Below are positions 2,371-42,923 of a DNA stretch of 64,000 nucleotides, piece after piece (position 1 is the first letter of the stretch; each line of letters starts with the position of its first letter). Origin of the DNA: Actinotalea caeni. Its GTDB lineage: Bacteria > Actinomycetota > Actinomycetes > Actinomycetales > Beutenbergiaceae. The stretch lies in assembly GCF_009733795.1 (NCBI RefSeq), contig NZ_WNXX01000004.1, positions 186,001-250,000 of the forward strand. Reading direction: 5' to 3'. The notes under the pieces were generated by a model. That model ran no database searches. It saw only the letters and a list, made by a program, of their open reading frames with translations, and was not told where the DNA came from. Both the position numbers and the translations under genes were made by a program.

Positions 2371-2422
2371 GCCTCCTACAGAACCACACCGTGCTCGGGC
2401 ACCGCCGCCGCCACCGCCCGTC

Positions 2423-3595
2423 TCAGCGCAGCATCGCGAAGAAGGCCCGCACGTCGTCCACCAGCAGCTCTGGGACCTCCATCGCTGGGAAGTGCCCGCC
2501 GGCGTCGTACTCGGTCCATCGCACGACGTTGCCCGAGTCGACGAGAGCGCGGATCGAGGTGTCCGCGGCGAACACCGCGACGCCGACCGGGACCGACGGG
2601 GCGTCCTGCCAGCCCGACGAGGCGTCGTCGTCGCCCGGCGCCGTCCACGGGATGTCGGAGTGCATGCTCTCGTAGACGAAGTGCGCGGAGCCGGCGCCGC
2701 CGCCGCTGAACCAGGTCGCGGTCACGGTGGTCAGCAGCTGGTCGCGGTCGACGGCGTCCTCCGGCAGCGCCTTGCCGGGGTCCGTCCAGGCCTGGTACTT
2801 CTCCACCATCCAGGCCAGCTGCGCGACCGGGGAGTCGTGCAGAGCGACACCGATCGTGGACGGCTGGTTGGACTGCAGGGCCAGGTAGCCGGAGCCGGTC
2901 GCCTCGAACTCGGCCGAGAGCCGGGCTCGCTCCCTGTCGCGCTCGCTCAGCTCGAGACCCTCGGGCAGGGCGCCGTAGCCGGTGGGCCCGTTCATGTGAA
3001 CGCCGATCACGGTGTCCGGGCTGACCCCGGCCAGCATGCCGGCCACGCCTGCACCGATGTCGCCGCCCTGGGTGCCGTACCTCGTGTACCCGAGCCGTCG
3101 CATCAGCTCGGCGTAGGCGGCCACCGTCGTCGGCAACCCCCAGCCCGTGGTGGTCACCGGCGGGGAGAGCCCGAATCCGGGCAGCGTCGGCATCACCAGG
3201 TGGAAGGCGTCTGCCGGGTCACCGCCATGGGCACGCGGGTCCGTGAGCGGTCCGACGATCCTCTGGAACTCGACCGGCGTGCTGGGCCATCCGTGGCTGA
3301 CGAGCAGCGGCAGCGCATCCGGCTCGGGCGAGCGCACGTGGAAGAAGTGGAGCTCTTGGCCGTCGATCGTCGTGGTGAACTGCGGCAGCTCGTTGAGGCG
3401 CCTCTCTTGCGCGCGCCAGTCGAACTCGTCGCGCCAGTACGCGGCCAGGTCCTGCAGGTAGCGCACCGGGGTGCCGCGCTCCCACCCCACACCGGGAAGC
3501 GCGGGCGCCCAACGGGTGCGTGACAGGCGTGCGTGGAGGTCGTCGAGATCCGCCTGCGTGACCGCGAGGGTGAAGGGCCTGATCGATGTGTGCAT
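2423..3595 (-). CDS. Epoxide hydrolase, microsomal-EH-type alpha/beta hydrolase
   Basis: 390 aa. An N-terminal EHN segment (residues ~4-110, with LHARLSRTRWA and WRAQERRLNELPQF) precedes the alpha/beta hydrolase core, as in microsomal-type epoxide hydrolases. HGWPSTPVEF carries the HGxP oxyanion-hole motif, GGDIGAGVAGMLA holds the nucleophilic Asp (~residue 177), and the C-terminal GGHFPAMEVPELL holds the catalytic His. It should open epoxides to diols. It is transcribed divergently from the WYL regulator with only 63 bases between starts, so that regulator is the likely controller. No signal peptide is visible, so it is cytosolic. Confidence 0.9.
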   Translation of the reverse strand: MHTSIRPFTLAVTQADLDDLHARLSRTRWAPALPGVGWERGTPVRYLQDLAAYWRDEFDWRAQERRLNELPQFTTTIDGQELHFFHVRSPEPDALPLLVSHGWPSTPVEFQRIVGPLTDPRAHGGDPADAFHLVMPTLPGFGLSPPVTTTGWGLPTTVAAYAELMRRLGYTRYGTQGGDIGAGVAGMLAGVSPDTVIGVHMNGPTGYGALPEGLELSERDRERARLSAEFEATGSGYLALQSNQPSTIGVALHDSPVAQLAWMVEKYQAWTDPGKALPEDAVDRDQLLTTVTATWFSGGGAGSAHFVYESMHSDIPWTAPGDDDASSGWQDAPSVPVGVAVFAADTSIRALVDSGNVVRWTEYDAGGHFPAMEVPELLVDDVRAFFAMLR

Positions 3596-27917: not shown

Positions 27918-28622
27918 CTACCCCGACGCCTCGCCGTGGCCCTGCTGGGTGAGCCACTCCTCGAGCTGGAGCACATGGATGCCCGCCCGCAGTCGCGCGC
28001 GCTCGGGATCACGGTCCTGGAGCGCCTCGAGGATCTGCTCGTGCTCGACCAGCGCGTTGCTGGCGGTGGTCTCGAGCGCACTGAGCCGCAGGGCCCGCGC
28101 GGAGACGGTCTGCCCGCCCAGCATGTCCGCGAGAGCCGCGAGGGCCGGGTTGCCGCACGCGCTGGCGATACGGCTGTGGAACTTGCGGTCCAGCTCGATC
28201 AGCTTGTCTGTGTCGATCGGCTGATGCCGCGCCACCACGCACAGACGCTCATGGATCTCCCGCAGCTCCGCCAGCTCGTCGTCGGTGATCCGGACGCTCG
28301 CCCGGGCGGCAGCCTCGGCATCGAGGATGCGCCGCACCCCGACGAAGTGCACCGCCGTCTGAGGGTCGTGGAAGTTCACGATGAAGCTCACCGCGTCGAG
28401 CACCAGCCCGGGAGCCAGGCTGGTCACGAAGGTGCCGGCGCCCTGCCTCGTCTCCAGCACCCGCAAGGCCGTCAGAGCTCGCACCGCCTCGCGCAACGAG
28501 TTGCGCGACAGACCGAGGCGGTCCGCCAGCGACTTCTCGACGGGCAGCCGATCTCCAGGGCGTAGCTCCCCCGAGACGATCATCCCTTTGATCTTCTCGA
28601 TCGCCTCGTCGGTCAGCGACAT
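27918..28622 (-). CDS. GntR-family (FadR/FCD subfamily) regulator of the sugar operon
   Basis: 234 aa from ATG 28622 (GAGGGGTTT upstream). The N-terminal winged helix has IKGMIVSGELRPGDRLPVEKSLADRLGLSRNSL in the expected place (residues ~10-45) with the LREAVRAL recognition follow-up; the C-terminal FCD domain shows the metal-binding D-x-x-x-H pattern in LDRKFHSRIA and later VEHEQILEAL. FCD regulators bind sugar acids or other carboxylates. It is divergent from the 11-gene catabolic locus; two CCGA-N5/6-TCGG palindromes in the gap are its likely operators. An aldonate or 2-keto-3-deoxy-aldonate intermediate is a reasonable inducer (inference). Confidence 0.9.
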   Translation of the reverse strand: MSLTDEAIEKIKGMIVSGELRPGDRLPVEKSLADRLGLSRNSLREAVRALTALRVLETRQGAGTFVTSLAPGLVLDAVSFIVNFHDPQTAVHFVGVRRILDAEAAARASVRITDDELAELREIHERLCVVARHQPIDTDKLIELDRKFHSRIASACGNPALAALADMLGGQTVSARALRLSALETTASNALVEHEQILEALQDRDPERARLRAGIHVLQLEEWLTQQGHGEASG

Positions 28623-28653: not shown

Positions 28654-28789
28654 AGCATAGGTGACCCGATGACTTTCGGTGAGGGCTTCGGCACGCTGCA
28701 TTCGACAACCGCTATATCTCGCCGTTATTGGAGGATTGACAGCGCGCGCCGTGACCACCTACGCTCCACCGCCATACCGAAGTCATCGG
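28654..28789. promoter_or_regulatory. Divergent promoters and two GntR operators
   Basis: Forward: TTGACA (28736-28741), 18-base spacer, TACGCT (28760-28765), the best promoter in the window. Operator CCGAAGTCATCGG (28777-28789) sits just after its start site. Reverse: -10 TATGCT (28659-28654) for gntR, with CCGATGACTTTCGG (28666-28679) between its -10 and -35. The two sites share ACCCGATGACTT in opposite orientation, as expected for one regulator repressing both directions. Confidence 0.7.
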
Positions 28790-28834
28790 GTGATTCGCTC
28801 ACCTGAGGGTTCTCTCGTTCCACATCAGGAGTCA

Positions 28835-30991
28835 ATGGTGACCGTCGAAGCCAAGCCCTACGCCCCCACGCGCTACCAGCAGCACGCCCGCAGACTCCTG
28901 CGCGACATGCACATCCCCGACTGGGATCCCGGGTTCCTCGCCGACTACGACCCGGACCGTCTCGCGCAGCAGTGCGCCGACGCGGGACTCGACGCCGTCA
29001 TGCTCTACGCCAAGTCGCACGTAGGCCTGTGCACCTACCCGACCGTCGTCGGCAAGCAGCACGGCAACCTCGGTGGGCGGGACGTGTTCAAGGAGCTCAA
29101 CGACGCCTGCCGGGCTCGGGGCCTGTCCACGATGGCCTACCAGAGCATCACCTTCGACAACTGGGCCGCCACCGCGCATCCGGAGTGGTCGCAGATCGAC
29201 GTCAGCACCGGGCGCCCCCTGCACGACCGCACCCGCTACGGCGTCTGCTGCCCCAACAACGCCGACTACCGCGCCTACGAGCTCGCCATCACCGAGGAGA
29301 TCCTCACCGGCTACGAGGTCGACGGTCTCTGGCTCGACATGATCTTCTTCCTGGCGATCTGCGCCTGTGACGCCTGCCGTGACCGGCTGCGTCGCGAGGA
29401 CGGCATCGAGGTCCCCGACGTCGTCGACTGGACCGACCCCGCCTGGGCCACCTTCCAGGCGGCACGCCGTCGGTGGCTCAACGAGTGGACCCGCATCCTC
29501 ATCGATCGGGCTCTGGAGCTGCGCCCCGGTATCGCCGTCACCCACAACCTCGCCAACGCGCTCTCCGGGTGGCGTTGCGGACAGACCCTGGCCAGCGGAA
29601 AGCTCGACACCTACACGTCCCTCGATCTGTACGGCGACCGATTCGAGCACCTCGTCGTCAACAAGCTCGCTCAGCACCTCAGCCGCACCCAGCCCGCCGA
29701 GCTCATGGTCAGCGTCGGGATCGACCTGATCGATCACGTCACGCTCAAGTCGACGGCGGAGCTCACCTCCGAGGGCCTGGCGGCCACCGCCACGGGGTCG
29801 GCGTTCATCGTCATCGACGGCATCGACCCCGACGGCCGCGAGCGGCCCGGCAACTTCCAGGTGATCCGCGACGCCTTCGCCGCCATGGCGCCGTACGCCG
29901 ATCTCGGCACCGGCCAGCCGCTGGAGGACATCGCGATCTACCTCTCGGACAACTCCTTCATGGACTTCGCGGACAACGGCACGCCGGCAGGGCCCCCGCC
30001 GCGGTTGGGCGGCACGCCCTTCCCGCACGTGCAGGCTGCCCGCGGCGTCGCCCGTGCGCTCGCCGAGGCGCACATCCCCTTCGGGGTGCTGAGCGAGTCC
30101 GACCTCGATCTCCTGCCGAGGTTCCGAGCGGTCGCGCTCCCGGACGTCTCCCGTCTCACAGCTCAGGAGGTCGAGGCCTTCCGCGCCTATGTCGCCGCCG
30201 GCGGACGCCTCTATGCCAGCGGCTACACCTCACTGGTGGAGGCGAATGGGACCCGCCACGAGGACTTCATGCTGGCCGACGTCTTCGGCGTCTCGTTCGC
30301 CGGCGAGGAGGACCGCCGCGTCGCTTTCATGACACCGCAGAGCGACGAGATCCGGGGGGCGATCCACCCGCAGGAGGAGATCAGCGAGCCCTACAACGCG
30401 CAGTGGGGGGTTCCCTACGAGCCGAAGCCGCTGCGCTCCTCGCCTCGCGCGAACGCGACGACGGCCACCACCCTCGCCACACTCACGCTGCCCTACGGCG
30501 GCCCGGCCTGGGGGTCGGTCGAGGACACCTCGTGGGCATCGATCCACTCCGCGCCGCCGTGGGAGCGAACCGGGCACAGCACTCTGACGCGCAACGAGTT
30601 CGGCAGTGGCGTGGCGGTCTACAGCACGTTCGTGCTCGAACGCTCCACCGTCACGGCCAATCGGGCGCTGCTGACCGCGATCCTGCGCGATCTCGTCGGC
30701 CCGACGCCGACGTTCGCCGCGGAAGCCCGCAGCAACGTATGGCTCAACGCCTATGACCAGGCCGATGCCGACCGGATCCTGCTGACGATCCAGAACTATG
30801 GCGTCGAGCAGCCCGCACCGCCGGAGCCGGTGCGCGTCATCCTCCGGTCGCCCTCGGACCGAGCCCTCGGCACGGCCACCGCCGGCCCGGGTCTGCGGAT
30901 CGTCTCCGCCGAGACCGACGACGACGGTGCGGCCGTGCTCCAGATCGAGCTCGTCGACGAGCTCGGTGTGGCGTACGTCGAGTACGTCTGA
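28835..30991 (+). CDS. GHL6-like (alpha-L-fucosidase-related) glycoside hydrolase with trimerisation-like domain
   Basis: About 718 aa. ATG 28835 is only three bases from AGGAG, so the GTG at 28838 may be used. The TIM barrel (residues ~15-370) has AGLDAVMLYAKSHVGLCTYP, CCPNNADYRAYELAITEEIL and DGLWLDMIFF, whose Asp aligns with the GH29-type nucleophile position; SLDLYGDRFEHLVV and ELMVSVGIDLIDH follow. Residues ~380-620 resemble a beta-galactosidase trimerisation/amidotransferase-like fold, and a beta domain ends the protein. There is no signal peptide, so it cleaves an imported glycoside. First gene of the operon, 4 kb upstream of the importer genes. Specificity is unknown; family placement is from pattern memory. 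Confidence 0.7.
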   Translation: MVTVEAKPYAPTRYQQHARRLLRDMHIPDWDPGFLADYDPDRLAQQCADAGLDAVMLYAKSHVGLCTYPTVVGKQHGNLGGRDVFKELNDACRARGLSTMAYQSITFDNWAATAHPEWSQIDVSTGRPLHDRTRYGVCCPNNADYRAYELAITEEILTGYEVDGLWLDMIFFLAICACDACRDRLRREDGIEVPDVVDWTDPAWATFQAARRRWLNEWTRILIDRALELRPGIAVTHNLANALSGWRCGQTLASGKLDTYTSLDLYGDRFEHLVVNKLAQHLSRTQPAELMVSVGIDLIDHVTLKSTAELTSEGLAATATGSAFIVIDGIDPDGRERPGNFQVIRDAFAAMAPYADLGTGQPLEDIAIYLSDNSFMDFADNGTPAGPPPRLGGTPFPHVQAARGVARALAEAHIPFGVLSESDLDLLPRFRAVALPDVSRLTAQEVEAFRAYVAAGGRLYASGYTSLVEANGTRHEDFMLADVFGVSFAGEEDRRVAFMTPQSDEIRGAIHPQEEISEPYNAQWGVPYEPKPLRSSPRANATTATTLATLTLPYGGPAWGSVEDTSWASIHSAPPWERTGHSTLTRNEFGSGVAVYSTFVLERSTVTANRALLTAILRDLVGPTPTFAAEARSNVWLNAYDQADADRILLTIQNYGVEQPAPPEPVRVILRSPSDRALGTATAGPGLRIVSAETDDDGAAVLQIELVDELGVAYVEYV

Positions 30992-31001
30992 GGCGAGGCC
31001 C

Positions 31002-32081
31002 ATGCGCGCAGCAGTCTTCACGGGCATCGGCCAGCCGCTCGAGGTGCTCGACCTCGAGCCGCTGGCACCCGGGCCCTCCGACGTCGTCGTCGCGGTCGGC
31101 GCTTCAGGCGTCTGCCACAGCGACCTGTCGGTGCACACCGGCGGTCGGCCGCTGCCGCCCCCGGCGGTGCTCGGCCACGAGGCTGCCGGCACCGTGGTGG
31201 CAGTCGGCGCCGATGTGCGCCTGGTGCAGCCCGGCGACCGCGTGGTCACCACCTTCATCCCCGCCTGCGGGGCGTGCTTCTGGTGCATCCGTGGCGAGTC
31301 CCACCTGTGCGCAGTCGCCTTCGACGTGGCCGGTACGCCACGCGCGACCCTGCCGGACGGCCGGCAGGCGATCAGCTACCTCGGACTGGGCACCTTCGCC
31401 GAGCAGACCACGGTGCACGAGGCCTCGGTGGTCAAGGTCAGCACCGACCTGCCGGACGAGCAGCTCGCCCTGCTGGGCTGCGGCGTCACGACCGGCATCG
31501 GCGCCGTGCTCCGCACCGCTGAGGTCCGCCCCGGTGACGCCGTCGCGGTGCTCGGCTGCGGGGGCGTCGGGCAGGCGATTGTCCAGGCTGCCGCGCTCGC
31601 CGGCGCCGGCCGGATCATCGCGATCGACCCGATCGAGTGGAAGCGGGCGGCGGCGCTGACCGCGGGCGCGACCGATCAGCTCGACCCGACCGCTGAGGGC
31701 ACCCGCGAGGCGGTTCTCGCGCTCACCGAGGGGCGCGGTGTCGACCATGCCTTCGAGGTCACCGGCCTGGCCTCGGTCGTGAGCGACGCCCTTGCGCTGA
31801 CACGACGAGGGGGCGGCGTGGTCGTGGTCGGCATGCCGCGGCACGACGCGCAGATCGCCTTCCCCGCCATGCCGTTCTTCGCCGAGGGCAAGCGGGTGCT
31901 GGTCGCCAAGTACGGCGGTGCCCAGGTGCGCCGTGACATCCCCACAGCCGTCGCACTGGCCGAGGCTGGACGCCTCGATCTGGCGTCCCTGGTCTCAGCA
32001 CGGCTACCCATCGACAGCGTCAACACGGCCCTCGGGGCCATCGCAGATGGAGAGGTGATCCGCAGTGTCCTCGTCCCGTGA
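31002..32081 (+). CDS. Zinc-dependent alcohol/sugar dehydrogenase (MDR family)
   Basis: 359 aa. GVCHSDLSVH and GHEAAGTVV hold catalytic-zinc ligands (Cys ~37, His-Glu ~60), CGACFWCIRGESHLC the four structural-zinc cysteines, and GCGGVGQAIVQAA the NAD(P) Rossmann loop followed by AIDPIEWKR, whose Asp favours NAD. Ten bases after the glycosidase. In archaeal D-arabinose metabolism a zinc dehydrogenase oxidises the sugar at C1, so it may share or duplicate the first oxidation step with the adjacent aldo-keto reductase; alternatively it oxidises a later hydroxyl. The frame overlaps the next gene by 17 bases. Confidence 0.85.
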   Translation: MRAAVFTGIGQPLEVLDLEPLAPGPSDVVVAVGASGVCHSDLSVHTGGRPLPPPAVLGHEAAGTVVAVGADVRLVQPGDRVVTTFIPACGACFWCIRGESHLCAVAFDVAGTPRATLPDGRQAISYLGLGTFAEQTTVHEASVVKVSTDLPDEQLALLGCGVTTGIGAVLRTAEVRPGDAVAVLGCGGVGQAIVQAAALAGAGRIIAIDPIEWKRAAALTAGATDQLDPTAEGTREAVLALTEGRGVDHAFEVTGLASVVSDALALTRRGGGVVVVGMPRHDAQIAFPAMPFFAEGKRVLVAKYGGAQVRRDIPTAVALAEAGRLDLASLVSARLPIDSVNTALGAIADGEVIRSVLVP

Positions 32082-33069
32082 CCGCTCACGTTTCGGGCTC
32101 GGCACGACCTCGATCGGTGGCATGTTCGCCCCGATGTCGGCCGCCGACGCCCAGGCCTTGATGCGCGCGGCCTACGAACGCGGCATCCGCTGGTTCGACA
32201 CCGCGCCCATGTACGGAGCGTCCACCGCCGAACGGCGGCTGGGCCACTTCCTCGACGACCTGGGCAGCACGGAAGGGCTCACGGTCAGCACCAAGGCCGG
32301 CCGTCAGCTCGTGCCGAAGCGGCGGGCCGGTGCGTCGGCTCCATTCAACGACTTCGGGTGGCACAACGCCGGGCCGTTCGTCGAGGTGTTCGACTACAGC
32401 TACGACGGGATCATGCGCAGCGCCGAGGACAGTCTCGCCCGACTCGGCGTCGAGGCGTTCGACGTGCTGTTCCTCCACGACATCGGGCGCTGGACCCATG
32501 GCGCGGAGAACGACCGTCACGTGGCCGCGCTGCGCGCCGGTGGCTATCGCGCGCTCGCCGAGCTCAAGGCGACGGGTGTCACGCGCGAGCTCGGTGTCGG
32601 CGTGAACGAGACGGACGCTCTGCTCTGCACGATGGCCGAGCTCGATCTCGACCGTGCTCTGCTCGCCAACCAGTTCACGCTGCTGACCCGGCCCGACGAC
32701 CCGGCCGTCTTCGAGACCTGTGCGCGGTCCGGCGTCAAGCTCGTGGCGGGTGGCGTCTACAACTCGGGCGTCCTCGCCGGCGGAAGCCACTTCAGCTACG
32801 AGGGCGTCCCCGACGAGATCGCGCGCACCGTCGCTGCGCTGTCCGAGACCTGTGAGCGCCACGATGTGCCGCTCATGGCCGCGGCGCTGCAGTTCGTGCT
32901 GCGCAGCGGGTACTTCGAGCGCGTGCTCCTCGGTGTGCGCAGCATCGCCGAGCTCGACGCGTCGTTCTCGGCGGCCGAGGTCGACATCCCGGATGCGCTG
33001 TGGGACGACCTCGTCGAGTCGGGTCTGCTCGAACCTCAGTGGATCGCCGGCACGGAGGTCACGGCATGA
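32065..33069 (+). CDS. Aldo/keto reductase, D-threo-aldose/L-fucose 1-dehydrogenase type
   Basis: 334 aa from GTG 32065. The catalytic tetrad positions appear as WFDTAPMYG (Asp, Tyr), STKAGRQL (Lys) and VLFLHDIGRW (His). The overall pattern, including YERGIRWFDTAP and FDYSYDGIMRSAEDSLARLG, is that of the D-threo-aldose 1-dehydrogenases, which oxidise L-fucose, D-arabinose and L-galactose at C1 to the lactone. It overlaps the zinc dehydrogenase by 17 bases and the lactonase by four. This gene, the lactonase and the mutarotase set the stereochemical identity of the pathway. Confidence 0.82.
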   Translation: MSSSRDRSRFGLGTTSIGGMFAPMSAADAQALMRAAYERGIRWFDTAPMYGASTAERRLGHFLDDLGSTEGLTVSTKAGRQLVPKRRAGASAPFNDFGWHNAGPFVEVFDYSYDGIMRSAEDSLARLGVEAFDVLFLHDIGRWTHGAENDRHVAALRAGGYRALAELKATGVTRELGVGVNETDALLCTMAELDLDRALLANQFTLLTRPDDPAVFETCARSGVKLVAGGVYNSGVLAGGSHFSYEGVPDEIARTVAALSETCERHDVPLMAAALQFVLRSGYFERVLLGVRSIAELDASFSAAEVDIPDALWDDLVESGLLEPQWIAGTEVTA

Positions 33070-33908
33070 TCGACGCCCACGTCCACGTCTGGGACCTCGC
33101 CCGCCGCGACTACGACTGGCTCGCCGGCGAGGACCGCGCGCTGCACCGGGACTTCACGTTCGCCGACTGGGCGGCTGCCGCGACGCCGCTCGGAATCGAC
33201 CGTGCGGTGCTGGTGCAGGCAGCGCCGACCGCCGCCGAGACCGAGTACCTGCTCAGCGTGGCCCACGCGAACACCGAGCAGGTGCTCGGCGTCGTCGGAT
33301 GGGTCGAGCTCACCGACTCGGACGCGCGCACCCAGCTCGAGCGGTTCGCTGCGGACCCGCTCGGCGTCGGCGTGCGGCCCTGGCTCCAGGCCATCGAGGA
33401 TCCGGACTGGATCCTGCGGTCCGACGTCGGCGAGGGGCTGGACGCGATCGAGGATCTCGGCCTGCTCTACGAGGCGCTCGCCCTCCCGGCGCACCTCGAA
33501 CCGCTGATCCGCGTGGTGGAGGCGCGTCCAGGTCTGCGGGTGGTTCTCGACCACATGGCCAAGCCGGACATCGCGCACGGCGGCCTCGAGGGTTGGTCCG
33601 CCGACCTCCGGCGGCTGGCCGAGGCAGGCGATGTCGTCTGCAAGCTCTCGGGTCTGGTCTCCGAGGCCGGAGAACGCACCAGCGCAGCGGATCTACGTCC
33701 CTACGTCGATGTCGCGCTGGATGCCTTCGGACCCGAGCGCGTGATGTGGGGCAGCGACTGGCCGGTCGTCTCCGCCGTCGTGACGTACGCGCAGTGGCAC
33801 GACCTCGCACGCACGCTCACACCTGCCGCCCACCACGAGCAGATCTTCGAGAGGACGGCCGAGCGGGTCTACGGTCGGGACCGGCACGCTCAGCGGGGGA
33901 ACGCATGA
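33066..33908 (+). CDS. Amidohydrolase_2 family lactonase (L-fuconolactonase-like)
   Basis: 280 aa, ATGA overlap at both ends. IDAHVHVWDLARRDYDWL is the start of COG3618 lactonases (HxH metal ligands at residues 4 and 6); VLDHMAKPDI has the next His and VMWGSDWPVV the conserved Asp. These enzymes open L-fucono-, L-rhamnono-, L-galactono- or D-arabinono-lactones to the aldonate. Following directly after the aldose dehydrogenase, it fits step two of an oxidative sugar pathway. Cytosolic. Confidence 0.85.
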   Translation: MIDAHVHVWDLARRDYDWLAGEDRALHRDFTFADWAAAATPLGIDRAVLVQAAPTAAETEYLLSVAHANTEQVLGVVGWVELTDSDARTQLERFAADPLGVGVRPWLQAIEDPDWILRSDVGEGLDAIEDLGLLYEALALPAHLEPLIRVVEARPGLRVVLDHMAKPDIAHGGLEGWSADLRRLAEAGDVVCKLSGLVSEAGERTSAADLRPYVDVALDAFGPERVMWGSDWPVVSAVVTYAQWHDLARTLTPAAHHEQIFERTAERVYGRDRHAQRGNA

Positions 33909-35476
33909 GCCAGGCCTCCCGTCCCCCGGTGCCGGTGTCGCTGGCACGGTCACGACGGACGGTGATCCGCCTCCACCCGGACGACGACGTCGTCGTGGCG
34001 GCGTTCCGGCTGGGTCCGGGCGACCCCTTGGACAGCGAGAAGGTTGTCGTCCGGGACCCGATCCCGCCGGGCCACAAGGTCGCCGTCCGGCGTATCGCCC
34101 GCGGTACGCGCGTGCTGCGCTACGGGCAGGTGATCGGTGTTGCGGCGACCGGCATCGAGCCCGGTCAGCACGTCCACACCCACAACCTGAGGATGCTCGA
34201 GTTCGAGCGCGAGGTCACGCCGTCGAGCGCCGCTCGCCCGACCCAGTACGTGCCCGAACCCGCCACCTTCGACGGGATCCGGCGTGCCGACGGTCGGGTC
34301 GCGACGCGCAACTTCATCGGCATCATCAGCAGCGTCAACTGCTCGGCCACGGTCGTGCAGGCGGTCGCCGACGCGTTCCGACGCGACCTGCGCCCCGAAG
34401 CACTCGAGGGGTTCGACCGGGTCGACGGCGTCGTGCCGCTCACCCACGGGTTCGGCTGCGCCGTCGACCCCGAGGGCGAGGGCCTGGCGGTCCTGCAGCG
34501 GACCCTGCGGGGCTATGCACAGCACCCCAACTTCGGCGCCGTGATCGCGATCGGTCTGGGGTGCGAGACCAACCAGCTCTCCGACCTGCTCGAGGTCGAC
34601 CTGTCCGGTATCGACCGCCCGGTCGCGTCCTTCAACATGCAGGACGCCGGAGGTACCCGCAAGAGCATCGAGCGTGCCGTCGCCATGGTGCGGGAGCTGC
34701 TGCCCGACGTCGATGCCGTGCACCGCGAACCCGTGCCGGCGTCCGAGCTCACGGTCGGGCTTCAGTGCGGCGGCTCCGACGGGTACTCAGGGATCACGGC
34801 TAATCCGGCCCTCGGCGCTGCGGTCGACCGGCTCGTCGCTCACGGTGGCACCGCCATCCTGTCGGAGACGCCAGAGATCTACGGAGCCGAGCACCTGCTC
34901 GCCGAGCGGGCCCACACTCCCGAGGTCGCTGAACGGCTGTACGCGCGCTTCACCTGGTGGCAGGAGTACGCGAAGCGGATGAACGCCGCCCTCGACAACA
35001 ACCCCTCGGCGGGCAACAAGGCGGGCGGCCTGACGACCGTCCTGGAGAAGGCGCTCGGCGGTGTCGCCAAGGGCGGCACGACCGACCTGATGGAGGTGTA
35101 CGAGTACGCCGAGCCGGTCCGCGAGCGCGGACTGGTCTTCATGGACACACCCGGGTTCGACCCGACGTCGGCGACCGGGCAGGTCGCCGGCGGTGCGAAC
35201 TTGATCTGCTTCACCACGGGCCGTGGTTCGGCGTACGGGTGTCAGCCGACGCCCTCGCTGAAGCTGTCCACGAACAACGAGCTGTGGCTGCGCCAGCAGG
35301 AGGACATCGACATCAACTGCGGCGGCATCGTCGACGGGTTCACCACCGTCGACGAGATGGGCCAGCAGATCTTCGAGCGCATGCTCTCGTGCGCGTCCGG
35401 CCAGAAGTCGGTCAGCGAGCTGCACGGGTACGGACAGAACGAGTTCGTCCCCTGGCAGCTCTCAGCGGTGATGTAG
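33905..35476 (+). CDS. UxaA-family (altronate/galactarate dehydratase-like) sugar-acid dehydratase
   Basis: 523 aa. An N-terminal SAF domain (residues ~18-95; VVRDPIPPGHKVAVRRIARGT) is fused to the UxaA catalytic part: GRVATRNFIGIISSVNCSAT, LTHGFGCAVDPEG, AIGLGCETNQ, GLQCGGSDGYSGITANPALG, NPSAGNKAGG and INCGGIVDG, which hold the conserved Cys/Asn/Asp metal-site residues. Family members dehydrate altronate or galactarate to 2-keto-3-deoxy acids. In this operon it is the only dehydratase upstream of the XylX-like enzyme, so it should act on the aldonate made by the lactonase. That would be an unusual assignment for the family. Confidence 0.85.
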   Translation: MSQASRPPVPVSLARSRRTVIRLHPDDDVVVAAFRLGPGDPLDSEKVVVRDPIPPGHKVAVRRIARGTRVLRYGQVIGVAATGIEPGQHVHTHNLRMLEFEREVTPSSAARPTQYVPEPATFDGIRRADGRVATRNFIGIISSVNCSATVVQAVADAFRRDLRPEALEGFDRVDGVVPLTHGFGCAVDPEGEGLAVLQRTLRGYAQHPNFGAVIAIGLGCETNQLSDLLEVDLSGIDRPVASFNMQDAGGTRKSIERAVAMVRELLPDVDAVHREPVPASELTVGLQCGGSDGYSGITANPALGAAVDRLVAHGGTAILSETPEIYGAEHLLAERAHTPEVAERLYARFTWWQEYAKRMNAALDNNPSAGNKAGGLTTVLEKALGGVAKGGTTDLMEVYEYAEPVRERGLVFMDTPGFDPTSATGQVAGGANLICFTTGRGSAYGCQPTPSLKLSTNNELWLRQQEDIDINCGGIVDGFTTVDEMGQQIFERMLSCASGQKSVSELHGYGQNEFVPWQLSAVM

Positions 35477-35490
35477 CACGCCGCGGAACT

Positions 35491-35515
35491 GGTGCGGGGC
35501 ACACGGCCCCACACC
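35491..35515 (+). other. Intercistronic hairpin before the binding-protein gene
   Basis: GGTGCGGGGC (35491-35500) pairs with 35506-35515 (one C:A mismatch, loop ACACG) in the only sizeable gap of the first half of the operon. Such hairpins often protect the transcript of the highly expressed binding protein or reduce read-through from the enzyme genes. Confidence 0.5.
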
Positions 35516-35532
35516 TCAGACGAAGGAGTCTC

Positions 35533-36855
35533 ATGAGCAGCACCCGAAAGAGAACATCTCGATCGCTGATGGCGCTCGGCGCCGCGGTCAGCCTCGCAGC
35601 TGTCGCCGCATGCGGCACGAGCGGTCCCGGTGGCGGGGGCTCTGACGACGGGGATGGCGGCGGTGACGGAGGCGGCGCCCAGACGCTCAACCTCTGGCAC
35701 CTGTCCAGCATGTCGACCGTGCCGGACGCCGTCCAGCGTTTCGAGGACGCGAACCCGGGCTGGACCGTCAACCTGACCGAGGCCCCCAACGACCAGTACA
35801 AGACCAAGCTGCGCGTCGCCCTGGGGACCGACACCGGCCCCGACGTGTTTCACAACTGGGGTGGCTCCGACCTCGTCGAGTACGAGGCCTCCGGTCTGAT
35901 CCTTCCGCTCGACGACCTGCTGGAGTCGGGCGACCTGGCGGGCGCCTTCACCGACGCCGTGCTCGAGCAGGGGCAGGTCGACGGGACCCAGTACGGCCTG
36001 GCGACCGCGGTCGAGGCGTCGATGGTCTGGTACAACACCGAGATCTTCGACGAGCTCGGGCTGGTGCCGCCGACGACCTGGGACGAGTTCCTCGAGGTCA
36101 TCGAGGCGACGAAGGCTGCTGGCCTGATCCCGATCGCGATGGCCAACTCCACGCAGTGGCCCGGCAGCCAGTGGTGGTCCGAGCTCGTCGCGCTGTCCTG
36201 CGGTCCGGACTTCTGGGCGACGCTGGGCAGCGACTCGCCGGCGATCCCGCTGGACGACCCCTGTGTCGTGACGGCCAACGAGAAGATCGTCGAGCTGGTC
36301 GAGGCGGGCGCGTTCAACCAGGGCTTCAACGGTCTGGACTACGACACCGGTGAGTCACGCCAGCTGTTCTGGTCCGGCCAGGCTGCCATGAACCACATGG
36401 GCAACTGGACGCTGCCCTCGGCTCAGGACGAGGCCCCCGAGATGCTCGACAAGCTCGACTTCTTCCTCGTGCCCGCGTGGGAGGGTGCGGTCGGTACCGG
36501 CGACATGATGACGGGCGGTCTCTCACCCGTGTACTCGGTCGCGGCGACGACGGCTGCGCCCGACATGGCCAAGGAGCTGGTGCGCTACCTGGTGGACGCT
36601 CAGGCGGCCGCCGACATCGCGACCGTGGGCCGCATCCCGGTCTACCAGGGCACGGAGATCAGTGACCCGCTCGGAGCCAAGGTGTCGGAGGCGATCAACG
36701 CTGCGCCGGCGCTGGCACCGTGGCCCGACCACGTGCTGGCTCCCGAGTGGACCACCGCCATGCTCCAGGCCACGCAGGGCCTGTTCGGGCTCACCCTGAG
36801 CCCTGAGGACGCAGCGACTCAGCTGCAGGCGGCCTACGAGCAGGTCCAGCAGTAG
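35533..36855 (+). CDS. Sugar ABC transporter substrate-binding lipoprotein
   Basis: 440 aa, AAGGAG upstream of ATG 35533. Lipoprotein signal with lipobox AVAAC (Cys ~26), then a Gly/Asp-rich tether and an extracellular solute-binding domain of family 1 (LNLWHLSSMSTVPDAVQRFE; VFHNWGGSDLVEYEASG; MVWYNTEIFDELGLVPPTTW). The binding-site aromatic residues around TQWPGSQWW are typical for oligosaccharide binders. It delivers a glycoside or sugar to the two permeases that follow. No ATPase gene is in the operon. Confidence 0.93.
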   Translation: MSSTRKRTSRSLMALGAAVSLAAVAACGTSGPGGGGSDDGDGGGDGGGAQTLNLWHLSSMSTVPDAVQRFEDANPGWTVNLTEAPNDQYKTKLRVALGTDTGPDVFHNWGGSDLVEYEASGLILPLDDLLESGDLAGAFTDAVLEQGQVDGTQYGLATAVEASMVWYNTEIFDELGLVPPTTWDEFLEVIEATKAAGLIPIAMANSTQWPGSQWWSELVALSCGPDFWATLGSDSPAIPLDDPCVVTANEKIVELVEAGAFNQGFNGLDYDTGESRQLFWSGQAAMNHMGNWTLPSAQDEAPEMLDKLDFFLVPAWEGAVGTGDMMTGGLSPVYSVAATTAAPDMAKELVRYLVDAQAAADIATVGRIPVYQGTEISDPLGAKVSEAINAAPALAPWPDHVLAPEWTTAMLQATQGLFGLTLSPEDAATQLQAAYEQVQQ

Positions 36856-36882
36856 GAATCCGAATCTCGGAGGAGCCCTCGC

Positions 36883-37767
36883 ATGATTCGTACCGATCGA
36901 CTCAAGTGGATCGCCTTCTTGGCACCGGCACTCATCGTCTACGGGGTGTTCCTGGTGTATCCGGTCGTGCAGTCGGCGATGCTCAGCTTCTCCTCATGGG
37001 CAGGGCCGGGCCGACCGGCCCTGCCCGTCGGGTTCGGGAACTTCGCCGAGCTGTTCCAGGACCCGGTGTTCTGGCTCTCGATGCGGAACACGGCGGCGCT
37101 GCTCTTCGTCAGTGTGTTTCTCCAGCTCCCGCTCGGGCTGGGCCTCGCGCTCATCGTGACCAGTGCGCGCCGCGGCCGTCGCATCTGGCGCGGGATCTAC
37201 TTCCTGCCCACCCTGATGTCGACGGTCGCGGTGGCGATCCTCTGGCGGTTCATCTACAGCCCGTCCTACGGGATCCTCAACGGCTTCCTACGAGCGATCG
37301 GGCTCGAGTCCCTGACACAGGGCTGGCTCGGGCAGCCCAGCACCGCGCTGTGGGCGGTCATCGGGGCCAACGTCTGGCAGTGGGCCCCCTTCTACATGAT
37401 CATCTACATCGCAGCGATCCTGGGGCTGGACCAGGAGCTGTACGAGGCCGCCTCGATCGACGGCGCCACGCGCGGTCAGCAGTTCAGGTTCGTCACGCTG
37501 CCGCTGCTGGTGCCCGTCCTGGTCACGACGTCGATCCTCTCGCTGGCGGGAGCGATCAAGGCCTTCGACCTGGTCTACATCATGACCGGCGGCGGGCCGA
37601 CGCACTCGACCGAGCTGCTCGCGACCTACATGTTCCTCCAGGGCTTCACCAACTACCGGCTCGGGTATGCGAGCGCGATCGCCATGGTGATCTTCACGAT
37701 CACCCTGGTGCTCACGGTGATCGTGCTGCTCCGATCGAACCGACGACCCCGCGCGAAGGTGCGTTGA
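36883..37767 (+). CDS. Sugar ABC transporter permease (MalF/UgpA type)
   Basis: 294 aa with six membrane helices (IAFLAPALIVYGVFLVYPVV first) and the cytosolic coupling helix EAASIDGATRGQQFRFVTLP, the EAA loop that contacts the ATPase. GGAGG before the ATG. Forms the import channel with the next gene; TGGGPTHSTELLATYMF is typical of the MalF-like partner. Confidence 0.93.
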   Translation: MIRTDRLKWIAFLAPALIVYGVFLVYPVVQSAMLSFSSWAGPGRPALPVGFGNFAELFQDPVFWLSMRNTAALLFVSVFLQLPLGLGLALIVTSARRGRRIWRGIYFLPTLMSTVAVAILWRFIYSPSYGILNGFLRAIGLESLTQGWLGQPSTALWAVIGANVWQWAPFYMIIYIAAILGLDQELYEAASIDGATRGQQFRFVTLPLLVPVLVTTSILSLAGAIKAFDLVYIMTGGGPTHSTELLATYMFLQGFTNYRLGYASAIAMVIFTITLVLTVIVLLRSNRRPRAKVR

Positions 37768-37768
37768 C

Positions 37769-38623
37769 ATGGCAACGGTGCGCACGCGTTCAGCCGTTCG
37801 GCCGGGGCCGGCCGTGGCGACGGTCCGGCTCCTCCTCGCGGTCTTCGCCGCGGTGATGTGTCTGTTCCCTGTGGTCTTCATGGTCCTGGGCTCGTTGAAG
37901 ACGCGGGGTGGGTTCCTGGAGAACCCGTTCGGGCTACCGAGGGACCTGACGTTCGAGAACTTCACGAACCTGGTGTCGACGGGCTTTGCGAAGTACTTCG
38001 GCAACAGCATCACGGTCACACTCGTCTCGGTCGCCGGCACCGTCGCGTTGGCCATCCTGGCGGCGTACCCGCTGTCGAGGTTCCAGACCCGGCTCAACAC
38101 CCCGATGACCCTGGTGTTCCTCGGCGGCATCATGATTCCGGTGCACGTCACGCTGATCCCGATCTACGTGCTGACGCAGGAGATGCGGATGTACGACTCG
38201 ATCGGCGCCTTGTTCGGCCCGTACATCGCCTTCAACCTCCCGGTCGCCGTGTTCGTCCTGACGAGCTTCTTCAAGCAGCTGCCGGAGTCGATCTTCGACG
38301 CTGCACGCATCGACGGCGCAGGGCACCTCCGGATCTTGCGGAGCGTGGTGGTGCCGATGGCTGGTCCGGCGATCTCGACGGTCGCGGTGATCACCTTCAT
38401 CTTCGTGTGGAACGAGTTCGTGTTCGGGCTGGTGCTGCTCTCGTCGGACACCAACTACACGCTCCCGCTCGGGCTCAACGCGTTCTACGGGAACTTCAGC
38501 GTGAACATCCCGGGCATGATGGCCGCGTTGACAGTGGCGACGCTGCCGTCGCTCCTCTTCTATCTGGCGGCGCAGGAGCGCGTCGTCGCAGGACTGGCTG
38601 CGGGCGCGCTCCGCGGAGAGTAG
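37769..38623 (+). CDS. Sugar ABC transporter permease (MalG/UgpE type)
   Basis: 284 aa, starting two bases after the previous stop. Six helices (VRLLLAVFAAVMCLFPVVFMVLG first), SLKTRGGFLENPFGLP external loop, and the EAA-type loop DAARIDGAGHLRILRSVVVP. Partner of the preceding permease in the operon's importer. Energy must come from an ATPase encoded elsewhere, for instance the UgpC-type protein at 56959-58098. Confidence 0.93.
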   Translation: MATVRTRSAVRPGPAVATVRLLLAVFAAVMCLFPVVFMVLGSLKTRGGFLENPFGLPRDLTFENFTNLVSTGFAKYFGNSITVTLVSVAGTVALAILAAYPLSRFQTRLNTPMTLVFLGGIMIPVHVTLIPIYVLTQEMRMYDSIGALFGPYIAFNLPVAVFVLTSFFKQLPESIFDAARIDGAGHLRILRSVVVPMAGPAISTVAVITFIFVWNEFVFGLVLLSSDTNYTLPLGLNAFYGNFSVNIPGMMAALTVATLPSLLFYLAAQERVVAGLAAGALRGE

Positions 38624-38633
38624 GACAAGGACC

Positions 38634-39041
38634 ATGCTGCTCAACATCGATCCGTTGCTGACCGGCGAGCTCCTCAAGGGGCTCGACGAGATGGGGCACT
38701 CCGACCTCGTCCTGATCGCCGACGCGAACTTTCCGGCTCACCGCGTCAATCGTGATGCGATCGAGCTCCCGGGGACCACGGTGCCGCAGGTCGTGCGTGC
38801 GATCTGCTCCGTCCTGCCACTCGACGGCGACGTCGCGCCGGTACTCATGGATGCTGGCGTGGTACCACCCCCCGCGGTGCAGGCCGAGATCGAGGCCGCT
38901 GCTGCACACCCGCTGGCGGCCAGGCTGATCGACCGCTGGGAGTACTACGACCTGGCCGCGCAGGCCAGCGTGGTCGTGGCCACGGGTGAGATGCGACTCT
39001 GGGGGAATGTGCTGCTGGCGAAGGGGCTGGTCCAGATCTGA
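38634..39041 (+). CDS. RbsD/FucU-family sugar mutarotase
   Basis: 135 aa, the usual length. LLNIDPLLTGELLKGLDEMG and GHSDLVLIADANFPAHRV are the FucU/RbsD signature, with the catalytic His in MGHSD; the C-terminal EYYDLAAQASVVVATGEMRLWGN matches FucU more than RbsD. FucU interconverts anomers of L-fucose (and some D-ribose), giving the form used by the dehydrogenase. Position at the end of the transporter block suggests it processes freshly released sugar. It supports a sugar of L-fuco/D-arabino configuration. Confidence 0.88.
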   Translation: MLLNIDPLLTGELLKGLDEMGHSDLVLIADANFPAHRVNRDAIELPGTTVPQVVRAICSVLPLDGDVAPVLMDAGVVPPPAVQAEIEAAAAHPLAARLIDRWEYYDLAAQASVVVATGEMRLWGNVLLAKGLVQI

Positions 39042-39211
39042 CCCGCTGGCCGGGCCCGCGTCGTGCAGCGGCTCACCGACGGGGCGCGGCACGTCGTGCC
39101 ACGAGAAGCCTCGCACCGGGCGCACCGACAGGGCACCAGGCTGACACGCACACGGCCTGCTCGTACCAGGCACTGATCGGGCGGCTAGGGTCGCCGGAGG
39201 AGGAGTCACCC

Positions 39212-40663
39212 GTGCACACCACGACCAAGGACGAGCTGGAGAGCGTGATGCGGCGCGCGCATGCCGCCTACCTGGAGGCGCGAGCCGTGTCACCTGGCGT
39301 GCGAGCCTCGTGGCTGGGCGCCGTTGCCGACGCGCTGGACTCGCGAGCAGAGGAGCTGGTGCCACTCGCTCATGAGGAGTCCCGACTTCCGGACGGCCGC
39401 TTGCGCGGCGAGCTCGGTCGCACGACGTTCCAGCTGCGGCTCCTGGCTCAGGAGGTCATCCGCGGTGAGCTCCTCGACGCGACGCTCGACCATGCGGATG
39501 ACGCGTGGGGGATGGGGCCGCGTCCGGACATCCGTCGTGTCAACGTGCCGCTGGGCGTGGTGGGCGTCTTCGGAGCGTCGAACTTCCCGTTCGCCTTCAG
39601 CGTCATGGGAGGGGACTCGGCCGCCGGTCTCGCCGCGGGCTGCGCGGTCGTCCACAAGGTCCACGAGGCGCACCCGGCTCTGGGACTGCGCACAGCCGAG
39701 ATCGTCGTGGACGCGCTGCGCGCCGCGGGAGCGCCGGACGGCCTGTTCGCGGCGGTCACCGGCCGCGAGATCGGCAACGACCTCGTCGACCACCCGCTGA
39801 CCGCCGCCATCGGTTTCACCGGCTCCACCCGTGTCGGGCGGATGCTGATGGAGCGCGCACAGGCGCGACCGGTACCGATCCCGTTCTACGGGGAGCTCGG
39901 CAGCATCAACCCGGTGTTCGTCACGCCGGCTGCGTGGGATGCTCGCCGCGACCAGATCGCCCGCGAGTACGTCGGCTCCTTCACGCTCGGCAGCGGCCAG
40001 TTCTGCACGAAGCCTGGTCTGCTGCTCGTCCCCTCCCTCGAGGAGGAGGCTGCCGCGACACTGCGCGACGCCGTCGCCGAGGTCGCGGCGGCGCCGATGC
40101 TGTCCGAGCGGCTGGCGTCGGGCTTCGTGGACGCGCGCGACGAGATGGCCTCGCGCGAGGGAGTCGCGACCGTTGCGCCAGGAGGGCGCGGGGAGGCGCC
40201 GGCCCCCGCGTTGCTGTCGGCGCCGGTCGAGGCCGTGCTGTCCGATCCTGCGATCCTCCGAGAGGAGATGTTCGGACCGGCCAGCATCGTCGTCACCTAC
40301 GAGGACGTCGCGCAGCTCGAGAAGGTGGTGGACCTGCTCGAGGGGCAGCTGACCGCCTCGGTCCACGCCGAGGAGGGCGAGGACGTCTCCGACCTCCTGG
40401 CCGCGCTCGAGCGCGTCTCCGGGCGACTCATCTGGAACGCGTGGCCCACAGGTGTCACGGTCACCTATGCCCAGCACCACGGTGGCCCGTTCCCCGCGAC
40501 CACCAGCCCGGGCAGCACCTCGGTCGGAACGGCTGCGCCCCGCCGGTTCACCCGTCCCGTGGCCTACCAGGGCGTGCCCGACTCCCACCTGCCCCCGGCT
40601 CTGCAGGAAGCAAACCCATGGCGGATCACGCGTCGTGTCGACGGCGTCTGGCAGGTGCCGTGA
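39212..40663 (+). CDS. Aldehyde dehydrogenase, alpha-ketoglutaric semialdehyde dehydrogenase type
   Basis: 483 aa from GTG 39212 behind GGAGGAGGAG. GVFGASNFPFAFSVMGGDSAAGLAAG, FYGELGSINPVFVTP (general-base Glu) and FTLGSGQFCTKPGLLLVP (catalytic Cys ~261) give the NADP-linked aldehyde dehydrogenase group that includes type III alpha-KGSA dehydrogenases; the GSGQFCTKPG context differs from lactaldehyde dehydrogenases. It should oxidise alpha-ketoglutaric semialdehyde to alpha-ketoglutarate. A 170-base gap precedes it (containing GGCACG-T-CGTGCC) and may hold a separate weak promoter. Its stop overlaps the dehydratase start. Confidence 0.87.
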   Translation: MHTTTKDELESVMRRAHAAYLEARAVSPGVRASWLGAVADALDSRAEELVPLAHEESRLPDGRLRGELGRTTFQLRLLAQEVIRGELLDATLDHADDAWGMGPRPDIRRVNVPLGVVGVFGASNFPFAFSVMGGDSAAGLAAGCAVVHKVHEAHPALGLRTAEIVVDALRAAGAPDGLFAAVTGREIGNDLVDHPLTAAIGFTGSTRVGRMLMERAQARPVPIPFYGELGSINPVFVTPAAWDARRDQIAREYVGSFTLGSGQFCTKPGLLLVPSLEEEAAATLRDAVAEVAAAPMLSERLASGFVDARDEMASREGVATVAPGGRGEAPAPALLSAPVEAVLSDPAILREEMFGPASIVVTYEDVAQLEKVVDLLEGQLTASVHAEEGEDVSDLLAALERVSGRLIWNAWPTGVTVTYAQHHGGPFPATTSPGSTSVGTAAPRRFTRPVAYQGVPDSHLPPALQEANPWRITRRVDGVWQVP

Positions 40664-41841
40664 TCAGGGTGGCCGACCGGAGGGTCCTGCCGCTGGACGC
40701 GGAGCGTGCCCTGCTCGTCGGACGGGTGTGGGACCCCAAGAGCGGCGGCCCTCGCCCCGTTCTTGTCCGCGGCGAGGCCGTGCACGACATCTTCGACCTC
40801 AGCTCGACGATCAGTGCGCTGCTGGAGCGGGACGACGCCGTCGACGCCCTCCGCGCGGTGAGCTCCCCGCCGAGGTGGCAGCTGCCCGACCTCGTGGCCG
40901 CGTCCGTGGAGCGCCGCTACGAGGCGCACCTGTTGGCTCCGGTGGACCTCCAGGTGATCAAGGCCTGCGGGGTGACGTTCGTCGACAGCATGATCGAGCG
41001 CGTCATCGAGGAACGCTGCGGTGGCGACCCGGTTCGCGCGGCTGAGGTGCGCGCCATGCTGGCCGCCCAGGTCACGGAGGACCTCGGTGCGGTCGTACCA
41101 GGCTCGAAGGACGCCGCCAGACTGAGGGAGGCGCTCCTGGCCAAGGGCTGGTGGTCGCAGTACCTCGAGGTGGGCTTGGGGCCCGACCCCGAGGTGTTCA
41201 CCAAGGCGCCGGTCCTGGCATCCGTCGGTTGGGGAGCGCGGATCGGGATCCCGCGGTTCTCGGGGTGGAACAACCCCGAGCCCGAGCTCGTGCTGGTCGC
41301 GGACAGTCTCGGTCGTGCCCGAGGCTGCACGCTGGGCAACGACGTCAACCTGCGTGACGTCGAAGGGCGAAGCGCCCTGCTGCTGGGGATGGCGAAGGAC
41401 AACAACGCCCAGTCCGCCCTCGGTCCGTTCATCCGGCTGTTCGACGGCGAGTTCACCCTCGACACCGTCCGCTCCGAGACGATCGAGCTCGAGGTCGTCG
41501 GCGTGGACGGGTACCGGATGGACGGGGTGAACAGCGTCAGCCGGCTCAGCCGCTCATTCGAGGAGCTGCTCGCCGCCGTCCACGGCGAGCACCACCAGTA
41601 CCCCGACGGCTTCGCGCTGTACACCGGCACGTTGTTCGCGCCGACCCAGGATCGCGACGCTGCCGGAGCGGGCTTCACGCACCACACCGGCGACATCGTG
41701 ACGATCTCCAGCCCGCACCTCGGCACGTTGGTCAACGAGGTGGCGCCGACGGAGACGATCGAGCCGTGGGACTTCGGGGTCAGCGCTCTGTGCGCCTATC
41801 TGCTCGGGCAGCAGCGTCACGCCCGCGACACCGAGTTGTAA
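40660..41841 (+). CDS. FAH-family 2-keto-3-deoxy-pentonate dehydratase (XylX/KdaD-like)
   Basis: 393 aa from GTG 40660 (overlap GTGA). The FAH fold's metal site is in VTFVDSMIERVIEER, WNNPEPELVLV and GNDVNLRDVEGRSALLLGMAKDNN, and TGTLFAPTQDRDAAGAGFTHH lies near the end. Length and motifs closely match Caulobacter XylX as I recall it (KAAGVTF, ERVIEER, SQYLEV, NNPEPE, QHQYPDGFAL), the enzyme converting 2-keto-3-deoxy-xylonate to alpha-ketoglutaric semialdehyde; Sulfolobus KdaD does the same with the arabinonate isomer. It is longer than the ~285-aa diketo-acid hydrolases of the L-fucose/L-rhamnose routes. Last gene of the locus. Confidence 0.88.
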   Translation: MIRVADRRVLPLDAERALLVGRVWDPKSGGPRPVLVRGEAVHDIFDLSSTISALLERDDAVDALRAVSSPPRWQLPDLVAASVERRYEAHLLAPVDLQVIKACGVTFVDSMIERVIEERCGGDPVRAAEVRAMLAAQVTEDLGAVVPGSKDAARLREALLAKGWWSQYLEVGLGPDPEVFTKAPVLASVGWGARIGIPRFSGWNNPEPELVLVADSLGRARGCTLGNDVNLRDVEGRSALLLGMAKDNNAQSALGPFIRLFDGEFTLDTVRSETIELEVVGVDGYRMDGVNSVSRLSRSFEELLAAVHGEHHQYPDGFALYTGTLFAPTQDRDAAGAGFTHHTGDIVTISSPHLGTLVNEVAPTETIEPWDFGVSALCAYLLGQQRHARDTEL

Positions 41842-42041: not shown

Positions 42042-42923
42042 TCAGCGCCGTTCGAGGAGGCCGTGCATCCGCATCCAGCTGACGAACGAGCCGAACCAGT
42101 CGGTGCTGGTGGTCTCCTTCGGGTACATGCCGAACCCGTGGCCGCCGCGCTCGTAGAAGTGGAGCTCCACGGGGCGCCCGGCGGAGCGCCAGCTCTCGAC
42201 GATCGGGAACCCGTTGGGCTCGAAGAGACCGTCGTCGGCGGCGAGGGCGATGAACAGCGGCGGCGCGTCGTCGGGCACCTCGAACGCCGAGAGCGGGCCG
42301 TAGATGTCGCCGATGAAGGCGGGCTTCGCGTCTCCGCCGACCAGGGCGGTCGCGACGGTGAGCATGGCGCCGGCCGAGAACCCGACCATGCCGATGCGCT
42401 CGGGGTCGACGCCCCACTCGGCCGCTCGGCTGCGCACGAGCGCGAACGCCGCGCGGGCGTCGGCGATCTGCGGGTCCAGGCTGCCCAGCGCGGCGGCCGG
42501 GTCGTGCCGGTGCGACGGCAGCGGCCCGGCCAGCATCTCCCGGATCGCCGCGGCGAAGTCGTCGAGGCTCTCCGGCGTCGGCCGGAGCCGGTACTTCAGC
42601 ACGAAGGCCGCGACACCACGGTCGGCGAGCGCACGAGCGACGTCCCAGCCCTCGTTCTCCATCGACAGCGACATGAAGCCGCCGCCCGGAGCCACGACCA
42701 CCGCGGTGCCGGTCGCCGCCGCCGGGTCCGGCAGGAACGGCGTGAGCGTGGCGACGCCGACGTTGCGGGCGAACATGCTGCCGTACTCGCTGTGCCACGA
42801 CTCCGGTGCCGAGGCCTCCGGCAGCGGCCCGGTCCCGAGCTCGATCGCGTCGGGCTGCGCGGGGATCTCGATCGGTGTCATCCCGTGCTGCACGGGAGCT
42901 GCGGGTGCGTCGCTGCTGGTCAT
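42042..42923 (-). CDS. Alpha/beta hydrolase (acetyl-xylan-esterase/BD-FAE-like)
   Basis: 293 aa from ATG 42923 with GGAGG upstream. AVVVAPGGGFMSLSMENEGWD has the HGGG-type oxyanion region (here PGGGF), MVGFSAGAMLTVA the nucleophile elbow GFSAG (Ser ~171), LFIALAADDGLFEP the Asp loop and RGGHGFGMYP the catalytic His. Proteins of this type deacetylate xylo- or other oligosaccharides; there is no signal peptide. It faces the sugar operon tail to tail. Substrate not certain. Confidence 0.85.
   Translation of the reverse strand: MTSSDAPAAPVQHGMTPIEIPAQPDAIELGTGPLPEASAPESWHSEYGSMFARNVGVATLTPFLPDPAAATGTAVVVAPGGGFMSLSMENEGWDVARALADRGVAAFVLKYRLRPTPESLDDFAAAIREMLAGPLPSHRHDPAAALGSLDPQIADARAAFALVRSRAAEWGVDPERIGMVGFSAGAMLTVATALVGGDAKPAFIGDIYGPLSAFEVPDDAPPLFIALAADDGLFEPNGFPIVESWRSAGRPVELHFYERGGHGFGMYPKETTSTDWFGSFVSWMRMHGLLERR

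Follow-up and report, generated by a model that had tools for sequence, protein, structure and literature searches.

A probable GntR-controlled operon for the oxidative catabolism of a D-arabinose-containing glycoside in Actinotalea caeni

The stretch analyzed here, 64,000 nucleotides of Actinotalea caeni contig NZ_WNXX01000004.1 (hereafter the window), carries a run of 11 co-directional genes on the + strand, most of which overlap or nearly touch in the open reading frame and Pfam reading. The run extends from its first start codon at 28835 to its last stop codon at 41841 and is probably a catabolic operon under GntR control that serves a D-arabinose-containing glycoside, the sugar of which would be oxidized to alpha-ketoglutarate. 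What is observed directly is the gene content, the conservation of active-site residues, the presence of operator-like sites and a neighborhood shared with an Actinomycetales metagenome-assembled genome (MAG62, locus L054); from these the substrates are deduced. Every enzyme and transport family named in a preliminary description of this DNA was recovered, on one strand and with exactly these limits:

28835..30991, +, glycoside hydrolase (GH), GH151-like (Pfam GHL6 2e-18, Alpha_L_fucos 7e-11)
31002..32081, +, Zn-dependent medium-chain dehydrogenase/reductase (MDR) alcohol dehydrogenase, closest to class I/III alcohol dehydrogenases (74% in L054)
32065..33069, +, aldo/keto reductase (AKR), candidate D-arabinose (L-fucose) 1-dehydrogenase (Pfam 9e-42)
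33066..33908, +, COG3618-type amidohydrolase, candidate D-arabinono/L-fuconolactonase (Pfam 5e-45; PDB 4dlf 1e-23)
33905..35476, +, UxaA/GarD-family (COG2721) dehydratase, candidate D-arabinonate dehydratase (Pfam SAF and GD_AH)
35533..36855, +, sugar-binding lipoprotein of an ATP-binding cassette (ABC) importer (SBP_bac_1 4e-35; lipobox-like sequence by inspection)
36883..37767, +, ABC importer permease 1 (BPD_transp_1 2e-21)
37769..38623, +, ABC importer permease 2 (BPD_transp_1 2e-16)
38634..39041, +, FucU-type mutarotase (RbsD_FucU 8e-29; PDB 2wcv 1e-19)
39212..40663, +, aldehyde dehydrogenase (ALDH), candidate alpha-ketoglutaric semialdehyde dehydrogenase (Aldedh 4e-47; nearest PDB entries 1eyy and 3v4c)
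40660..41841, +, XylX-like FAH-family (COG3970-type) protein, candidate D-2-keto-3-deoxypentonate dehydratase (PDB 9kkt 1e-113)

In the proposed pathway, the binding protein and the two permeases would import the glycoside with an ATPase encoded elsewhere, no ATPase gene being present within the operon. The cytoplasmic GH151-like hydrolase would then free D-arabinose, probably in the pyranose form with its L-fuco-type ring configuration, and FucU would equilibrate the anomers. Oxidation at C1 by the AKR and lactone opening by the COG3618 lactonase would yield D-arabinonate, which the UxaA-type enzyme would convert to D-2-keto-3-deoxypentonate (D-KDP). From there, the XylX-like enzyme would form alpha-ketoglutaric semialdehyde and the ALDH would produce alpha-ketoglutarate, as in the Weimberg-type Route II.

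The oxidative route and its enzymes

The genes that characterize Route II (AKR, COG2721 dehydratase, COG3970-type dehydratase and aldehyde dehydrogenase) all lie in this one locus, and no member of the L-fucose isomerase family is found in the host genome. Route II has been described for Paraburkholderia mimosarum and Herbaspirillum huttiense (Watanabe 2019; PMC6336799). Cluster 4 of P. mimosarum combines an AKR with COG2721 and COG3970 proteins and is specifically induced by D-arabinose; its AKR is a D-arabinose/L-fucose dehydrogenase, and COG3970 proteins convert D-KDP to alpha-ketoglutaric semialdehyde (PMC6336799). The operon shares the AKR-type D-arabinose 1-dehydrogenase, both COG families and the alpha-ketoglutarate end with these systems, but adds an ABC importer, FucU, a COG3618 lactonase, an intracellular GH151-like glycosidase, the MDR, an ALDH within the run and a GntR regulator, and its host is an actinobacterium. 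The preliminary description knew of no account of this exact gene set, but its core was published in 2019 (PMC6336799), whereas the coupling of this known pathway to an importer and a fucosidase-like glycosidase is a new combination. If the assignment is correct, a beta-proteobacterial pathway is extended to Actinomycetota with nearly all auxiliary steps included.

The dehydratase carries cysteines C146, C185, C220 and C288, the spacing of which (39, 35, 68) is identical to that of the four conserved cysteines (134, 173, 208, 276) of C785_RS13685, a UxaA-family D-arabinonate dehydratase that strongly favors D-arabinonate, also over L-fuconate (PMC6336799). These iron-binding cysteines are common to other UxaA/GarD enzymes as well. 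Relatives with 63-65% identity on Paraburkholderia and Variovorax replicons adjoin a XylX gene, in Variovorax also an ALDH gene. In the tree, the dehydratase falls in a Burkholderiales group that holds a Herbaspirillum gene located beside XylX, apart from the UxaA genes found in the bacterial family of its host; the closest of the latter were considered as operon relatives and rejected, as their neighborhoods are not such operons. It sits on a long stem near XylX-linked and D-idonate-type sequences, with no specific grouping with the XylX-linked ones. The substrate assignment is therefore supported more by context than by phylogeny.

The XylX-like protein is distantly related to the Sulfolobus KdaD (2q18, 2e-16), and KdaD residues E114, E143, E145 and D164, which we take to be the metal-binding and catalytic acids, correspond to E178, E207, E209 and D228. 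The Sulfolobus D-arabinose pathway shares the overall chemistry and the active-site acids, but its dehydrogenase is an MDR and its first dehydratase belongs to the enolase superfamily; KdaD and a semialdehyde dehydrogenase complete it. The start of the XylX-like gene overlaps the ALDH stop, and it is because of this pairing, which recurs in Rhodococcus, Corynebacterium, Paraburkholderia and the actinobacterial genome G321, that the ALDH is assigned as a putative alpha-ketoglutaric semialdehyde dehydrogenase. The closest XylX-like relatives are encoded in Rhodococcus and Corynebacterium adjoining ALDH and an enolase-type dehydratase, and on these relationships the operon is a mosaic. In G321 (L053, 9761-19083), XylX, ALDH, AKR, GntR, COG3618 lactonase, FAH-family and SDR (short-chain dehydrogenase/reductase) genes occur together with no UxaA match, apparently as a mixed Route II/III sugar-acid locus.

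The families of the upstream enzymes further support an L-fuco/D-arabino configuration, in line with what the preliminary description had proposed for the mutarotase, the AKR and the lactonase; the glycosidase family fits it too. In the PDB, the AKR matches L-galactose dehydrogenases best, and its relatives (40-46%) neighbor FucU, COG3618 or fuconate genes. The mutarotase, for which no second gene of the RbsD/FucU family was found in the genome, scores 82 bits against the FucU model (NF011949) and 27 bits against the RbsD model. Together with the cysteine spacing of the dehydratase and the KdaD acids of the XylX-like protein, these family fits support, at the level of sequence, the earlier proposal that the sugar is oxidized to alpha-ketoglutarate and is more likely D-arabinose than L-fucose. 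The proposal of more than one C1 dehydrogenase fares less evenly: the AKR stands as a candidate, but a second such role for the MDR is doubtful, since its closest likeness is to class I/III alcohol dehydrogenases. The MDR may act in C1 oxidation or may oxidize the alcohol of a released aglycone, the latter role being a guess.

The glycosidase and its likely substrate

The glycosidase consists of a GHL6/alpha-L-fucosidase-like barrel followed by a GH42M-like (Rossmann) domain and a C-terminal domain. Its sole broad PDB match is ALfuk2 (6tvk; E 7e-10, residues 48-467), an enzyme that a review assigns to GH151, naming D154 as the nucleophile and E235 as the acid/base (PMC10154630). For the deposited 6tvk chain a 29-residue offset in ALfuk2 numbering was taken, which fits D154 and E235 alike. 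The domain order is the same, and D168 of the glycosidase aligns with the nucleophile. However, the similarity is remote, and the acid/base glutamate is not aligned: E235 lies opposite T261, with D258 and D264 nearby. A structure prediction from two sequences was discarded as too poor (pLDDT 33). No signal peptide is evident from inspection of the sequence, and a search of 396 Actinomycetota genomes returned, beyond the glycosidase itself, one remote homolog (25%).

Because the enzyme is GH151-like with the nucleophile kept, lacks an evident signal peptide and is nearly absent from the sampled Actinomycetota, its likeliest substrate is an imported pyranosidic D-arabinoside, the pyranoside nature being deduced as the substrates of the other enzymes are. 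An alpha-L-fucosidase-type active site should be compatible with a D-arabinopyranoside of matching ring configuration. It is a tentative idea, on balance doubtful, that the protein founds a group of intracellular D-arabinopyranoside-specific glycosidases and that the operon is dedicated to a natural D-arabinopyranose glycoside, in a cell that has a second system for D-arabinofuranan. If the D-arabinoside assignment of the operon is correct, it supplies a candidate D-arabinopyranoside enzyme and hints at an unrecognized natural source of D-arabinose.

Several observations weigh against the D-arabinose assignment. Three proteins score below the cut-offs of the corresponding models, namely the mutarotase (cut-off of NF011949, 141 bits), the lactonase (169 bits against 400 for the L-fucono-1,5-lactonase model NF052480) and the ALDH (94 bits against 770 for the alpha-ketoglutaric semialdehyde dehydrogenase model NF042993). 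The dehydratase clade includes a D-idonate-dehydratase-type gene (Paracoccus, 62%) and many XylX-less loci, so that clade membership leaves the substrate unfixed. No XylX match was found in the perhaps incomplete MAG62 assembly (G449), though ALDH is kept there; either the assembly is incomplete or another downstream step is used. Finally, D-arabinopyranosides are, to our knowledge, naturally rare.

Alternative substrates

The strongest alternative, which we nevertheless regard as unlikely, is that the physiological glycoside is an alpha-L-fucoside. The same first steps would then lead to L-2-keto-3-deoxyfuconate, with an aldolase encoded elsewhere, the ALDH acting on L-lactaldehyde and XylX taking D-arabinose as a side substrate. 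This would agree with the remote relationship of the glycosidase to GH151 alpha-L-fucosidases and its aligned nucleophile, and with MAG62, which has ALDH and no XylX match. Loci of the non-phosphorylative L-fucose pathway (Routes I and III) likewise contain the AKR, FucU and the COG3618 lactonase, at times with a UxaA-type dehydratase, but pair them with SDR and FAH-family hydrolase or aldolase genes. In the operon, the SDR, the diketo-acid hydrolase and the aldolase are all absent, and XylX and ALDH take their place; the XylX-like gene overlaps the ALDH gene and its product has the KdaD residues, and C785-type dehydratases favor D-arabinonate over L-fuconate.

Scavenging of mycobacterial-type D-arabinan fragments, as suggested in the preliminary description, appears improbable. 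The host genome does hold five GH183 (DUF4185) and two GH172 (DUF2961) matches, all on other contigs, and GH183, GH172 and GH116 are not found inside the operon. One match of each family lies in a probable D-arabinan utilization locus that also contains GH116, and the others are scattered in the host genome (G000):

C45:144800-155300 (L169), outside the window, probable D-arabinan utilization locus with GH116, ABC importer, GH183, GH172, PfkB kinase, SIS-domain isomerase and LacI regulator
C49:606-1529, C48:126239-127177, C18:25836-26306, C10:19530-20180 and C33:162905-163663, four further GH183 matches and one further GH172 match

The published D-arabinan locus of Microbacterium arabinogalactanolyticum (GH183/GH172/GH116; PMC10509167) shares with the operon an importer and an intracellular glycosidase yielding D-arabinose, but differs in having furanosidases and an isomerase plus kinase, and it is the C45 locus that resembles it. 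The operon glycosidase falls outside the known D-arabinofuranosidase families. Furthermore, GH172 was found in 16 of 23 further genomes sampled from the same family, whereas dnaB in the four relatives checked has no such operon beside it. The MAG62 genome, which carries the operon, gave no GH183 match, in a search in which no control matched, although the same model did match in the host genome. Given the separate GH183/GH172/GH116 locus, the spread of GH172 and the result for MAG62, D-arabinan is best assigned to the C45 locus and the operon to another glycoside. If so, a single actinobacterium would use D-arabinose through two systems unrelated to each other, one phosphorylating and tied to D-arabinan, the other oxidative and tied to the other glycoside. 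A Mutator-family transposase gene adjoins the C45 locus.

L-galactose or another L-fuco-type hexose is a very improbable substrate despite the PDB matches of the AKR and a postulated UxaA-family L-galactonate dehydratase (PMC6336799), since XylX would turn the hexose keto acid into a ketone that an aldehyde dehydrogenase cannot use; on such pathway chemistry and the L-fuco-type families, both L-galactose and D-xylose were rejected.

Regulation, conservation and origin

The preliminary description omitted a divergent regulator gene and two operator-like sites in the gap between it and the D-arabinoside operon:

27918..28622, -, GntR/FadR (FCD) family regulator, probable repressor (Pfam GntR 1e-18, FCD 1e-22)
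28662..28673, -, operator-like site GTCATCGGGTCA adjoining the GntR gene (exact match)
28782..28793, +, operator-like site GTCATCGGGTGA 5' of the operon, directly after a TTGACA/TACGCT promoter-like pair

A search of the 4.0 Mb genome for GTCATCGGGTSA returned three exact copies, two of which lie in this intergenic gap. The third was rejected as a further regulon member, as it falls on the start codon of an unrelated gene. The regulator has a counterpart in MAG62 at the equivalent position (71% identity), and AAGTCATCGGGT is kept 5' of the MAG62 operon, with one mismatch in the copy before the MAG62 ALDH gene. The GTCATCGGGTSA copies are the likely operators.

MAG62 keeps the order GntR(-)/GH/MDR/AKR/lactonase/UxaA/SBP (binding protein)/permeases/FucU with 57-83% identity, and because of this conservation the gene order is not due to chance. 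Its ALDH gene (62%; 2001-3461) lies on the opposite side of GntR, behind its own operator-like site. When relatives of the dehydratase were scanned in 84,980 species genomes, the only actinobacterial one among the best 80 matches was that of L054, and nearly all the rest are from Burkholderiales. The GC content of the operon is 69.4%, compared to 72.7% in the remainder of the window, and in four host relatives, in all of which dnaB was found, the 6 to 14 kb examined after it hold no operon genes. On account of the lower GC and this absence, the operon is accessory and was probably acquired.

Convergent to the operon lies a gene for an acetylxylan-esterase-like alpha/beta hydrolase (42042-42923, -), no counterpart of which was found with the L054 operon. 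MatE is located 5' of dnaB in three of the four host relatives. In a same-genus genome (G001; L181, 1738-2934 and 3865-4041), dnaB is split near its 3' end by about 930 bases, the read-through of which has a stop, possibly reflecting an intein or an insertion.

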